Shown piece by piece: positions 41,431 to 48,453 of a stretch of 49,935 nucleotides of DNA. The notes beneath the pieces are model-generated. The model was not told the DNA's origin. It made no database searches and saw only the letters and a list, made by a program, of their open reading frames with translations. The number at the start of each line of letters is the position of its first letter. The stretch's first letter is position 1. Source of the DNA: an uncultured Chloroflexus sp. (GTDB taxonomy: Bacteria; Chloroflexota; Chloroflexia; Chloroflexales; Chloroflexaceae). Location: positions 1-49,935 of the forward strand of contig NZ_CAKZNK010000058.1 of NCBI RefSeq assembly GCF_937129525.1. The letters are read 5' to 3'. A program made the translations under genes and the position numbers.

Positions 41431-41509
41431 AAGGCCGATCCGCAAGCGACCAGTTATGAGCAACACTAACAATTCCATGTAGCGGCCATTGCAGGTAAAG
41501 CAGGAATTA

Positions 41510-41553
41510 TTTGTATATCGCGACATTATTCTTTGTATATCGTGGCATTATTC
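41510..41553. repeat. Two 22-bp tandem repeats
   Basis: Units 41510-41531 and 41532-41553 both read TTTGTATATCG, then cGACATTATTC or tGGCATTATTC, differing at two bases. They abut exactly. They lie 50-70 nt upstream of the promoter candidate for the sco gene and may be operator or activator sites. Confidence 0.7.
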
Positions 41554-43110: not shown

Positions 43111-44790
43111 ATGGCCAGTATTGCAGCACGCGCTCGCCCAATGGCGGTGAGCTCAGACCTGAGTGTCGAGCACAAGCTCGCAGGCATCAATATTTTCATT
43201 GCCTTTGCGGCGCTTGCCGTCGGGGGATTGATGGGGATCTTGCAGATCTTGCGCTACAACGGCCTTGATTTGTACACCCCGGCCAAGCCCGTTCTACCTG
43301 GCGGCTACTATCAAGGTTTGACCGTTCACGGTGTGCTCAATGTGCTCGTTTTTACAACGTTTTACATCATCGGATTTTTGACTTTTATTTTCGCCAAAGC
43401 GCTCAACCGACCACTGGCCAGCAGTCGGTTGGCCTGGGCCACGCTCTGGGTCATGGTGACCGGTTTGCTGTTAGCAGCATTCCCGCTGCTGACGAATAAC
43501 GCTACGGTGATGTTCACCTTTTATCCACCGCTGAAGGCCGATGCCCTCTTCTATATCGGTCTGACCCTGGTGGTTGCCGGCACCTGGCTTTTGCTGGTCA
43601 ACATGATCATCACGCGCAACGCCTGGCTGGCCGATAACCCCGGTCAGCGCACGCCGCTGCCGGCATTTATGGCCATTGTGACAATGTTGATGTGGACAAT
43701 TTCCACCATCGGCGTGGCCAGCGAAATGCTGTTCCTGGTCATTCCGTGGTCGTTGGGGCTGGTCGGCGGAACCGATCCCGTTCTTGCGCGCACGCTGTTC
43801 TGGTTTACCGGTCACCCGATTGTCTACTTCTGGCTATTGCCTGCTTACATTTCGTGGTACACACTGGTACCCGTCCATCTCAACGGCAAGCTCTTCAGCG
43901 ACCCCATGGCGCGGGTGTCGTTCATCCTCTTCCTGATCCTGTCACTCCCGATCGGGATGCACCATCAGGTCACCGACCCGGGTATTTCCGAAATGTGGAA
44001 GCTCGTCCACGCCATCTTTACCTTTGGCGTCTTCTTCCCCAGCCTGCTCACCTTCTTCAACGTGGTAGCATCACTGGAGTACGCCGGTCGCAAACACGGC
44101 GGCGAGGGCTGGCTTGCCTGGATCTTCAACCTGCCATGGGGTAAGCCGGAAGTATCGGCCCAACTGGTGGCGATGATGCTGTTCGCGTTCGGTGGCATCA
44201 GCGGTCTGGTTAATGCTTCGTACAACATCAACCTGGTGGTACACAATACTGCCTGGATCTCGGGGCATTTCCATCTGACAGTGGGCACTGCGGTTGCGCT
44301 CAGCTTTATGGGTATCACTTACTGGCTGGTGCCGTATCTGACCGGACGAAAGCTGTGGAGTCGCGGGCTGGGTGTGGCGCAGGCATGGCTCTGGTTCGCA
44401 GGCATGGGTCTTTTCTCACACTTCATGCACGAACTGGGTCTGCGAGGCATGCCGCGACGCACTGACATCGGCGGCGCGCCCTACGTGCAGGACGAGTGGC
44501 GCTTCTTCCTCTTCTTTGCCATGATTGGTGGTCTGATCATGTTCGTGAGCGCTATCTTCTACTACCTCAACATGATTATGACTATCACCCGCGGCAAGAA
44601 GCTGGAGAGTGTGCCGGAAGTGACCTTCGCCAAAGCCCTCTCCGGCCCCGAAGACGCGCCCAGAATTCTCGACCGACTGCTGGTGTGGGTGGTCGTTGCA
44701 GCAGTTCTGCTCTTGATCAACTACCTGCCGACGATCCTGGACATCCTCAGCACAGCAACCTTCGACATACCAGGACGAAGAGTCTGGTAA
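43111..44790 (+). CDS. cbaA: ba3-type cytochrome c oxidase subunit I
   Basis: A 559-aa heme-copper oxidase subunit I of the B (ba3) family. His73 (GLTVHGVLN) and the later WISGHFHLTV carry heme ligands; the CuB site has TGHPIVYFWLLP (His235 with Tyr239 cross-link) and GMHHQVTDPG (His284, His285). About 13 membrane helices. GAGAAGGAGAGG precedes the ATG. It pumps protons while reducing O2 with electrons from cytochrome c or a cupredoxin. Confidence 0.93.
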   Translation: MASIAARARPMAVSSDLSVEHKLAGINIFIAFAALAVGGLMGILQILRYNGLDLYTPAKPVLPGGYYQGLTVHGVLNVLVFTTFYIIGFLTFIFAKALNRPLASSRLAWATLWVMVTGLLLAAFPLLTNNATVMFTFYPPLKADALFYIGLTLVVAGTWLLLVNMIITRNAWLADNPGQRTPLPAFMAIVTMLMWTISTIGVASEMLFLVIPWSLGLVGGTDPVLARTLFWFTGHPIVYFWLLPAYISWYTLVPVHLNGKLFSDPMARVSFILFLILSLPIGMHHQVTDPGISEMWKLVHAIFTFGVFFPSLLTFFNVVASLEYAGRKHGGEGWLAWIFNLPWGKPEVSAQLVAMMLFAFGGISGLVNASYNINLVVHNTAWISGHFHLTVGTAVALSFMGITYWLVPYLTGRKLWSRGLGVAQAWLWFAGMGLFSHFMHELGLRGMPRRTDIGGAPYVQDEWRFFLFFAMIGGLIMFVSAIFYYLNMIMTITRGKKLESVPEVTFAKALSGPEDAPRILDRLLVWVVVAAVLLLINYLPTILDILSTATFDIPGRRVW

Positions 44791-44837
44791 GAGACAAGAT
44801 ACTGTAACGGCAATCAACCACGCGTGAATGACACTGA

Positions 44838-44862
44838 GCGAGCCGCAGTCAGAGCGGCTCGC
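44838..44862 (+). terminator. Terminator of the oxidase operon
   Basis: GCGAGCCGC (44838-44846) and GCGGCTCGC (44854-44862) pair perfectly, extendable by one A-T and one G-U pair, with a 7-nt loop. It is 47 nt after the subunit I stop and is followed by the mildly T-rich TTCATCTTC. Confidence 0.7.
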
Positions 44863-44892
44863 TTCATCTTCGACTCTATCGCCTGTGGATCT

Positions 44893-44919
44893 ACCGCAGA
44901 GGCCGCAGAGACCGCAGAG
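44893..44919. repeat. Three 9-bp units RCCGCAGAG
   Basis: ACCGCAGAG, GCCGCAGAG and ACCGCAGAG follow each other without gaps. Two more units of the same kind (ACCGCAGAG, GCCGCAGAG) sit at 44965-44982. Units like this are common dispersed repeats in bacterial genomes. Confidence 0.85.
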
Positions 44920-44921
44920 AG

Positions 44922-44963
44922 CCTGTCGCCTATCAGCTATCCCCTATCGCCTATCGGCTATTG
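44922..44963. repeat. 7-bp tandem array 1 (six units)
   Basis: Six 7-bp units, CCTGTCG CCT ATCA and so on, with consensus CCTATCG, run from 44922 to 44963. Units: CCTGTCG, CCTATCA, GCTATCC, CCTATCG, CCTATCG, GCTATTG. Exactly 42 nt. Confidence 0.85.
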
Positions 44964-44987
44964 AACCGCAGAGGCCGCAGAGAGAGG

Positions 44988-45016
44988 GTAGAGACGTTGC
45001 AATGCAACGTCTCTAC
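44988..45016. repeat. 29-bp near-perfect palindrome
   Basis: GTAGAGACGTTGCA (44988-45001) and TGCAACGTCTCTAC (45003-45016) are perfect inverted copies separated by one A. It sits between the two 7-bp arrays. Palindromes of this kind (GTAGAGACGTTGCA type) are, to my knowledge, dispersed repeats in cyanobacteria and Chloroflexota, consistent with a small mobile or REP-like element. Confidence 0.85.
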
Positions 45017-45032
45017 CATTTCACGCAAATCG

Positions 45033-45074
45033 CCCATCGCCTATCAGCTATCGTCTATCGCCTATCACCTATCG
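45033..45074. repeat. 7-bp tandem array 2 (six units)
   Basis: Six units of the same consensus: CCCATCG, CCTATCA, GCTATCG, TCTATCG, CCTATCA, CCTATCG. Again exactly 42 nt, followed by CTATAAT. The arrays differ in content but share phase and length. Confidence 0.85.
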
Positions 45075-45083
45075 CTATAATCC

Positions 45084-45113
45084 TTGACATGCAGCGGTTT
45101 TCTGTGGTACTAT
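45084..45113 (+). promoter_or_regulatory. Promoter for the ABC transporter genes
   Basis: TTGACA (45084-45089), an 18-bp spacer and TACTAT (45108-45113) form a good sigma-70 match. It is 10 nt past the second repeat array and would start transcription about 80 nt ahead of dppD. Confidence 0.7.
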
Positions 45114-45201
45114 CCCCAATATCCGCACCGGAACAGGTAAACATAACAATGTAACGGCCATGCCTGGCTTAAGGTCAGGGCAACATCACAGAGGACTCCG
45201 T

Positions 45202-46218
45202 ATGGCCCCCTTGCTGGAAGTTCGTGATTTACGCACCTATTTTCAGACCCAAGACGGCATCGTCAAAGCAGTTGACGGTGTCTCTTTTTATGTTAATCGA
45301 GGCGAAACCCTCGGTATCGTCGGCGAGTCGGGTTGTGGCAAATCGGTTACCTCCCTCTCAATTATGCGGCTGATTCCTACCCCGCCGGGCAAGATTGTCA
45401 GCGGTCAAATTTTATTTGACGGTGACGATCTGTTGCAGGCCAGCGAAGAAGAGATGCGCCACATTCGCGGTAATCGGATCGCCATGATCTTTCAAGATCC
45501 GATGACTTCCCTTAATCCGGTGCTCACGATTGGCCGGCAAATCACCGAATCGCTTGAACTACACCTGAAGTTGACGAAAAAAGAGGCCCGTGATCGCGCG
45601 ATCGAGCTACTCGATATGGTCGGCATCCCATCAGCCAGTAAGCGGCTCGATAACTATCCCCACCAGTTTTCGGGTGGGATGCGCCAGCGCGTGATGATTG
45701 CGATGGCCCTCTCGTGCAACCCCGAATTACTGATTGCCGATGAGCCAACTACCGCGCTCGATGTGACCATCCAGGCCCAGATTCTTGAATTGATTAACCG
45801 GCTGCGCGAAGAATTGGGCACGGCAGTTATTTTGATCACCCACGATCTCGGTGTGGTGGCCGGGATGACCGACCGGGTAACAGTGATGTACGCCGGCAAA
45901 GTAGTTGAAGAGGGGCCTACTCACGAGATCTTTGCCAACCCGCGCATGCCCTACACGATAGGACTGCTGCGCTCAATCCCCCGGCTCGACGAAGAACGGG
46001 GTCGTCGCCTGAAACCAATTCGCGGCCTGCCGCCAAATCTGATCGATCTGCCGCCGATCTGCCCCTTCAGCCCACGCTGTGATTATGCGCGCGAGGAATG
46101 TCTGACCAGTGCCCCGGAGCTGCGCAGCGTCGGCGCCGATCATCGCGCAGCATGCCACTTTGACATCACGATAGAAACACCTATCCCCCAGCAAACGACT
46201 ACCGATATTGCAGCTTGA
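45202..46218 (+). CDS. dppD: Peptide ABC transporter ATP-binding protein (DppD/OppD type)
   Basis: A 338-aa ATPase of the oligopeptide/dipeptide importer family. [20 protein letters not shown] is Walker [20 protein letters not shown] the signature, and [20 protein letters not shown] Walker B. The C-terminal extension has [13 protein letters not shown], which binds an iron-sulfur cluster in some OppD/OppF proteins. ATG at 45202 has GAGGA upstream; 14 further codons upstream are open without similarity. Permease and binding-protein genes are not present here. Confidence 0.92.
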
Positions 46219-47356: not shown

Positions 47357-47592
47357 TTCCCTGTTCAAGAAAGCAAACAATCCTGCTCAGGCGATCTGCG
47401 TATCGAGCATCATCTGCCAGAATAGATATAACAGGTAATAGCTTCGCATAAACAGGCGGTCTGCGCTCTACTTCGCTAGCGTAACTTGATGTGAACGAAC
47501 ACAACAAATGCATCGCATGATCGTGTACTTGTGCGTGCATGCTCACCATAACTGTCAAGTTTTAGACGATGAAAACCTGCGCAAGGAATGCT

Positions 47593-48453
47593 ATGTCATC
47601 ACCTATCATAAAACAACACAGAAGGCGAGTTATAGCCTTCGGCTGGTACGGAGGTAAATACTCTCACCTTGATTGGCTATTGCCGTTATTGCCGCCTTGC
47701 CACCACTACTGTGAGCCATTTGGCGGCTCAGCAGCCGTTTTATTGAATCGTGAACCGTCACCCGTAGAGACGTATAACGATGTCGATGGAGAGGTGGTTA
47801 ACTTTTTCCGAGTGTTGCGAGATAAGCCTGATCAACTTATGCAAATGATTGGTCTTACGCCGTTTTCACGTGAAGAGTTTGCAATCGCTTGCGAAATTGA
47901 CCCTGATGTAGATCCCATAGAACGAGCGAGAAGATTTTATGTGCGCGCTCGACAAGTGCGCACCGGACTTGCTCAATCTGCAACTCTGGGACGTTGGGCA
48001 AACTGTAAAAACACAAGTCGATCGGGCATGGCAGGCGCTGTTTCGCGTTGGCTTGGTGCCATTGAAGACTTACCAGAAATAGCCTTGCGCTTGCTGCGTG
48101 TCCAAATTGAGAACAGACCTGCCATCGAAGTCATACGTCTGTACGATTCGCCAGAAACACTTTTCTACTGTGATCCTCCATATGTTCATGAGACACGCGG
48201 TGATAAGCAAGCTTATGCGTATGAAATGAGTGATGAAGAGCATCGCGAATTAGCGCTGGTGTTAAATTCAGTTCAAGGGCTTGTCGCTGTCTCTGGATAC
48301 GATTGCGCATTGATGCAAGAACTTTATCCCTCGCCAAAGTGGCATAAACATATTGCGCCAACAAGAACGATACACTCAACGAAAGATGCCAGAACCGAGA
48401 TCGTATGGACAAATTATGATCCGAACGAAATCAGATCAGGGAGACTTTTTTAG
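47593..48453 (+). CDS. D12-class N6-adenine DNA methyltransferase
   Basis: A 286-aa DNA methyltransferase. FGWYGGKYSHLDWLLPLLP and EPFGGSAAVLLN are the SAM-binding motifs (about 16-49), DPPY is the catalytic motif (194-197), and SRSGMAGAVSRWL is the variable part. D12 (MethyltransfD12) enzymes methylate adenine in short sites. ATG at 47593 is preceded by AAGGA (47583-47587); an ATG at 47569 is less favoured. Paired with the nuclease 9 nt downstream. Confidence 0.9.
   Translation: MSSPIIKQHRRRVIAFGWYGGKYSHLDWLLPLLPPCHHYCEPFGGSAAVLLNREPSPVETYNDVDGEVVNFFRVLRDKPDQLMQMIGLTPFSREEFAIACEIDPDVDPIERARRFYVRARQVRTGLAQSATLGRWANCKNTSRSGMAGAVSRWLGAIEDLPEIALRLLRVQIENRPAIEVIRLYDSPETLFYCDPPYVHETRGDKQAYAYEMSDEEHRELALVLNSVQGLVAVSGYDCALMQELYPSPKWHKHIAPTRTIHSTKDARTEIVWTNYDPNEIRSGRLF

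Follow-up and report, generated by a model that had tools for sequence, protein, structure and literature searches.

Introduction

The link between RAYTs and REPs was set out by Nunvar et al. 2010 (PMC2817692), in whose general description BIMEs are mosaics of REPs in alternating orientation. In those parts of Quentin et al. 2018 (PMC6006769) that deal with subclass 2.4 (Bertels group 4), the REPs are described as double-foot, starting with GT[AG]G (5′) and finishing with C[TC]AC (3′), and as insertions that preserve the reading frame of tnpAREP genes, usually placed between HUH and Y; the subclass is reported there from Cyanobacteria, Bacteroidetes and various phyla. GTAG-tagged REP families, including the cyanobacterial GTAG-12/15/16, have a RAYT link and are in some cases found inside genes (Di Nocera et al. 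2013, PMC3733652); neither Chloroflexus nor Roseiflexus is named in the main text of that paper. Tandem repeats of 7-mers have also been described, the TAACTGA repeats from Beggiatoaceae and cyanobacteria (PMC4679880) and the GGGNATC repeats from Xanthomonas and Nostoc (PMC4692102), both mostly located between genes according to the passages on their distribution.

Here we describe a patch of repeats within a 49,935-nt stretch of DNA from an uncultured Chloroflexus sp. (hereafter the window), which is contig C58 of genome G000 (4.48-Mb, 157 contigs). Judged from its sequence, the palindrome in this patch fits a double-foot REP of RAYT/TnpAREP subclass 2.4, and the patch as a whole is best explained, with a probability of roughly 0.77, as a lineage-specific intergenic mosaic of three separate repeat kinds, i.e. 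the REP palindrome, 7-mers and 9-mers. The site adds one more case to repeat types already known and does not represent a new kind of element. A literature search by palindrome, 9-mer and 7-mer words and by Chloroflexus repeats, judged by title and with most subscription journals outside its coverage, gave no description of the composites among the papers listed.

Layout of the repeat patch

The repeat patch (44893–45073), with a COX1 gene on one side and an oligopeptide ABC transporter gene on the other, consists of three 9-mers, six 7-mers, two 9-mers, a 29-bp palindrome and six 7-mers. The features of the site, in window coordinates, are as follows.

43111–44790, + strand: haem-copper oxidase subunit I (COX1), the upstream neighbour (Pfam PF00115, E 4.2e-93)
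44837–44863, + strand: hairpin 3′ of COX1, terminator-like, without a T run (−14.1 kcal/mol, z −4.2)
44875–44884, + strand: left remnant of the 7-mer repeat (TCTATCGCCT; direct repeat family D3)
44893–44920, + strand: three 9-bp units RCCGCAGAG (repeat search)
44921–44962, + strand: 7-bp array 1, six units, core CTATC with a variable dinucleotide (pattern search)
44965–44983, + strand: two 9-bp units RCCGCAGAG (repeat search)
44988–45016, no strand assigned: 29-bp palindrome that fits a double-foot REP (GTAG ... CTAC; repeat search, folding, RAYT link)
45017–45031, + strand: linker CATTTCACGCAAATC (15 nt; alignment; the copy at C140 differs at two bases)
45032–45073, + strand: 7-bp array 2, six units, then GCTATAA (pattern search)
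45084–45113, + strand: promoter TTGACA-18-TACTAT, 10 nt 3′ of array 2, kept in 7/7 congeners
45202–46218, + strand: oligopeptide ABC transporter ATPase (Pfam PF00005, PF08352)

The composite layout noticed in a first-pass annotation of this DNA is real, with 9-mers, array 1, 9-mers, palindrome and array 2 all located within the patch; the one-base-spaced palindrome that it reported has perfect 14-bp arms (GTAGAGACGTTGCA-A-TGCAACGTCTCTAC), and the composite does end 10 nt 5′ of the promoter. Two details need adjustment: three of the 9-bp units precede the arrays as had been stated, but the other two stand between array 1 and the palindrome, and whilst six plus six 7-bp units can be called, that number depends on the mismatch allowed and so is not exact.

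Array 1 reads GCCTGTC GCCTATC AGCTATC CCCTATC GCCTATC GGCTATT and array 2 GCCCATC GCCTATC AGCTATC GTCTATC GCCTATC ACCTATC; part units border the 7-mer arrays on both sides. The equal lengths of the arrays had been taken as a sign of design, and are better explained by their match to each other in register (49 nt, 82%); six is also the commonest length among 34 arrays in 25 stretches of the genome (nine arrays have six units; range 4 to 23, several being cut by contig ends). The STRR of Calothrix, an intergenic 7-mer tandem repeat, is a comparable known system. At other loci, too, part 7-mers and GATC(C)TAC precede the 9-mers, as read by eye.

A three-unit 7-mer pattern (≤2 mismatches) matched eight times in the window, where shuffles would give 0.03, and the palindrome, with 0 copies expected, occurs there once; a 39-nt piece containing it, folded as single-stranded DNA, scores z = −10.3. 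Rfam gave no match within the window, and a terminator scan called neither the 44837–44863 hairpin nor any other terminator at the site. The open reading frame of the ABC transporter ATPase opens at 45160, with 45202 as the likely start given its conservation in congeners, as assessed by eye. The window additionally contains a 22-bp tandem repeat (2.2 copies, ATTCTTTGTATATCGCGACATT) at 41506–41553 and, 3′ of the ABC genes, a D12-class adenine DNA methyltransferase gene (47569–48453).

Copies and co-location of the parts

Of the 12 palindrome copies that the genome contains, ten are exact, one has a single mismatch and one is a GGAG..CTCC variant with two; the co-location count given here includes this variant (at C95), and the scan of 41 genomes described below includes a weaker copy at C144 in its place. 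A genome-wide search for joint occurrence of palindrome and arrays, as the first-pass annotation had proposed, gave a divided answer: seven of the 12 palindromes lack any 7-mer array at a distance of ≤200 bp, but five have one, compared with 12 of 2957 control positions (0.4%) placed at random, more than 600 bp away, within the same palindrome loci. Seen from the arrays, 30 of at least 34 exact 7-mer loci have no such palindrome alongside and 4 adjoin one, among the 100 of 308 matches listed. A second palindrome type, GTAGGGGCG..CGCCCCTAC, has 17 copies in the genome; five of the 15 copies used for co-location have arrays within 200 bp.

Palindromes can also adjoin a different kind of short array, as at locus L007, where a solitary palindrome is followed, near 1530–1600, by an 8-mer-like tandem array (GATACACC; read by eye). 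A further palindrome, GTAGGGGCGAATAATTATTCGCCCCTAC, recurs in the genome at C36:192, C74:119, C83:101, C83:59054 and C86:2444 (L397, L401, L404-L406). Three of these copies lie 100–192 bp inside a contig start, a position that would fit the end region of some longer repeated element.

A copy of the core of the composite (44956–45022), identical at 66 of 67 bases, lies at C140; it spans a 7-mer end, two 9-mers, the palindrome and the start of the linker, and similarity stops past the right-hand array. A second composite, made up of 7-mers, a 9-mer, the GTAGGGGCG palindrome, a tail and 7-mers, was located by eye twice at C89, at C148 and partly at C50. The presence of the core at both C58 and C140, and of the second composite at C89 and C148, indicates that blocks are copied; in the cases examined, the block ends mostly fall in 7-mer arrays. 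The composite had no match in plasmids.

Among 41 genomes, 17 contain the palindrome frame GTAGAGACG-N-CGTCTCTAC, 12 a four-unit 7-mer array and 22 the 9-mer pair. Across this set, arrays show no association with palindromes (Fisher p 0.51, Spearman 0.08, kinship ignored), with array-rich genomes that have no palindrome (G003, G008) and palindrome-rich genomes that have no arrays (G001, G012, G019). Three or more 9-mer places are present in 11 of the 17 genomes with the palindrome, compared with 5 of the 24 without it (p 0.0086, kinship ignored), and by this association the parts are not wholly independent. A reversed-pattern control is uninformative for the CTATC arrays, since CTATC is the same when read backwards. 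The linker bases of the 7-mers vary by lineage (GC/GG/AG in G000, TC/TT/CC in one G003 array, GG in G017) around a constant CTATC core, which, given that the search pattern fixed that core and that few loci are involved, is a lead at most.

These data bear on the compound element suggested in the first-pass annotation and, more specifically, on whether the patch is a true compound mobile element whose arrays, 9-mers and palindrome move together with the arrays serving as ends or homology arms. C58 and C140 share the order of parts and their junctions, yet they are the only two copies of the window composite seen; the second composite type recurs likewise, but the composites differ in order and content; and although the co-location of both palindrome types with arrays is far above that of the control positions, most copies of the window palindrome stand without arrays, and whole genomes are rich in one part and devoid of the other. 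We consider a single compound element unlikely, whilst the clustering and the copied core are the parts of that proposal which hold.

The site in congeners

The repeats are lineage-specific among the seven congeners examined. The same gene pair, separated by a short gap with none of the repeats, is present in G001, G002, G004, G005 and G007, and hairpins fold in the gaps of the four short-gap congeners examined; in G006 the two genes flank a longer gap, in which neither CTATC nor 9-mer pairs occur, and the upstream neighbour is a different one in G003. All seven possess the promoter, and all are without these repeats at the site, which leaves the earlier suggestion of an effect on ABC gene expression unsupported. 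A regulatory or insulating element selected 5′ of the ABC genes would agree with where the patch lies, with a hairpin on one side and, 10 nt away on the other, the −35 box of a promoter; however, with the promoter kept in repeat-free congeners, copies of the parts at many other loci and no terminator called, such a role appears very unlikely.

Palindrome arms in other phyla and inside RAYT genes

The palindrome arms, with none to two central bases between them, were found in at least 117 stretches of other genomes, in records that include Cyanobacteria genera, Chloroflexi, Bacteroidetes, Chlorobiota, Uhrbacteria, Microgenomates, Gemmatimonadetes, Spirochaetaceae, Thiotrichaceae and others. A home-made Y1-transposase profile matched three of 4003 ORFs of the palindrome stretches at E ≤0.01, one of them weakly (0.0093), and in all three the palindrome lies within the open frame. 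A RAYT profile (A2) was then applied to 50 of the at least 117 palindrome stretches, one per organism (those left out being mostly from cyanobacteria), together with 17 relatives; it matched in 53 of these 67 genomes, or in 52 of 66 if G001 and G078, which look like one genome counted twice, are treated as the same.

Perfect palindromes with arms of at least 12 are located inside 21 of 39 RAYT ORFs (27,519 bp in total), compared with two in 79,337 bp of flank, in a set that drops the seeds L316-L318, loci L349-L352 (picked because a palindrome was nearby), the duplicate L346 and ORFs <130 aa; the other 18 ORFs have no such palindrome inside. The motif NH[IFV]H is present in 23 of the 39, WQ in 35, the looser YIxxNP in 33 and all three in 21. 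NCBIfam REP_Tyr_transpos was the best match of all seven proteins searched, above the cut-off in two. In G036, which belongs to the same order as the window genome, the exact window palindrome lies in frame in a RAYT, being read within DVETLHCNVSTS; the same arms are present in the RAYTs of, for example, G042 and G050.

The RAYT family is found in 16 of 17 palindrome-bearing relatives (G000 included) versus 9 of 24 relatives without the palindrome, some of these nine being weak matches (p 0.00027, kinship ignored); G020 has the palindrome and no RAYT match with profile A2. At two further Y1/RAYT loci in relatives, L274 (at 2290) and L280 (at 1131), the GTAG..CTAC palindromes are different ones, that of L280 lying at the edge of the RAYT frame. 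Among viral contigs there were three palindrome stretches and no RAYT-profile match, the ORFs of L412 included; this 6.2-kb contig from a viral collection contains two identical palindromes (1291–1318 and 2160–2187), 869 bp apart.

In a tree built without the palindrome-encoded residues, nine RAYTs with these arms fall in one 10-row clade (support 98/95), with the qualifications that the bootstrap had not settled, that two seeds are among the nine, that many hosts are MAGs, and that sampling favours relatives of the seeds, most genomes having been chosen for carrying the palindrome. By the titles of their records the nine comprise Bacteroidota-type (three), Uhrbacteria, Thiotrichaceae, Chlorobiota and Cyanobacteria (two) sequences, plus that of G036; the clade covers six phyla. 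The arm label requires 2 changes on the tree against a shuffled mean of 8.3, none of 500 shuffles being as low, for a tree that drops ORFs <155 aa and L346, L347, L348 and L364 and keeps the seeds L316-L318 and the picked loci L349 and L350. This match of arms and clade across six phyla suggests that the two may have spread together horizontally. Elsewhere in the tree, the C69 RAYT of the window genome (L335) and one at C279 of G011 (L331), a genome of another genus, pair as sisters (100/100; branch lengths 0.12 and 0), which suggests a possible recent transfer.

Pure chance or slippage with no mobile component could give rise to the 7-mer and 9-mer arrays, whose lengths vary, but is already refuted for a 29-bp palindrome that is exact at ten places in the genome, with arms in many phyla and in frame in RAYT genes, and as an account of the patch it is barely credible.

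RAYTs of the window genome

The first-pass annotation had also recommended looking for a RAYT-type transposase elsewhere in the genome. The family is indeed present, but none of the RAYT matches found there bears these arms. Profile matches lie at C69 (211 aa, E 3.2e-46), C9 (155 aa) and C60 (142 aa). The C9 match is at the end of its contig and the C60 match near the start of its own; since the C9 end and the C60 start have 77 bases exactly in common, albeit in different frames as assembled, they are probably halves of one gene split by assembly. The C69 protein has the motifs NHLH, WQ and YIADNP, and its linker holds the near-palindrome GTAGGGGTG; at C60 a GTAGGGGCG palindrome stands before the open frame. 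The palindromes of the RAYTs of this genome are of the GTAGGGGYG type, and C69 sits in the half of the tree with GTAGGGGCG or no palindrome. The GTAGAGACGTTGCA copies of the genome appear to be orphans and, as no RAYT found there has their arms, the mover of the 12 copies has been lost, is hidden in a gap or is a non-cognate enzyme.

Pfam Y1_Tnp (PF01797) had 0 matches in the window genome, an absence that we rejected as a false negative because profile A2 matched three places; in relatives, none of 30 PF01797 loci contained GTAGAGACG, probably because other Y1 transposases ranked first. Pfam Y1_Tnp can thus miss RAYTs of this kind, which calls for caution.

Proposed assembly of the mosaic

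In the favoured reading of the patch as a mosaic of separate repeats, the REP would be non-autonomous and presumably dependent on a tyrosine HUH transposase that excises and inserts it as a single-stranded hairpin; we infer this movement from the sequence of the REP, its copy number and its presence in RAYT genes of one clade in other genomes. The CTATCNN 7-mers would be tandem arrays prone to slippage, and the CCGCAGAG 9-mers a third short tandem repeat. These pieces would gather in the same permissive gaps between genes, and finished blocks would then be copied from gap to gap, with recombination or gene conversion in the shared 7-mer arrays at their borders as the most likely route, as the block here and at C140, and another at C89 and C148, lead us to propose. 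The block in the window may have settled between the gene end and an unchanged promoter, where it is probably close to neutral.

An extension of this reading, possible though doubtful, would give the 7-mer arrays two functions, docking and copying. REPs would land preferentially beside CTATC arrays, through which entire REP/9-mer cassettes would then be copied by recombination into other intergenic gaps, and this two-step dispersal, run jointly by a tandem repeat and a transposase-dependent palindrome, would outlast loss of the cognate RAYT.

For the mosaic itself, the analysis identifies an unannotated repeat of Chloroflexus type as a REP that fits a known RAYT group, and shows a single set of REP arms tracking a single RAYT clade, which was sampled from six phyla. 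The site also lends itself to the study of how different kinds of repeat nest and are copied jointly.

Comparison with known systems

The closest likeness is to subclass 2.4, as it is characterised in the relevant parts of PMC6006769. The window palindrome (44988–45016) has a GTAG end, a CTAC end and a long hairpin with 14-bp arms, and the same REP lies in frame, between HUH and Y, in RAYTs of other genomes, though not in those of G000; by our own motif searches, the protein motifs NH[IFV]H, WQ and YIxNNP are present in their strict forms only in part. The window REP differs in being bounded by 7-mer and 9-mer arrays, and in that no RAYT found in its genome carries its sequence. With the GTAG families it has in common a short GTAG palindrome, a RAYT link and the location of some copies within genes; in the description of those families the tag is not base paired, whereas the GTAG of the window palindrome pairs with its complement (PMC3733652).

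As in the BIMEs outlined in PMC2817692, a REP is embedded in composite repeats, but a single palindrome stands at this site among tandem arrays, in contrast to several REPs in alternating orientation. Finally, the CTATC arrays resemble the 7-mer repeats reported in PMC4679880 and PMC4692102, so far as those are described there, in their 7-bp unit, many loci, variable unit number and occurrence in several phyla, and are distinguished from them by a CTATC core with a variable dinucleotide and by their mixing with REPs and 9-mers.
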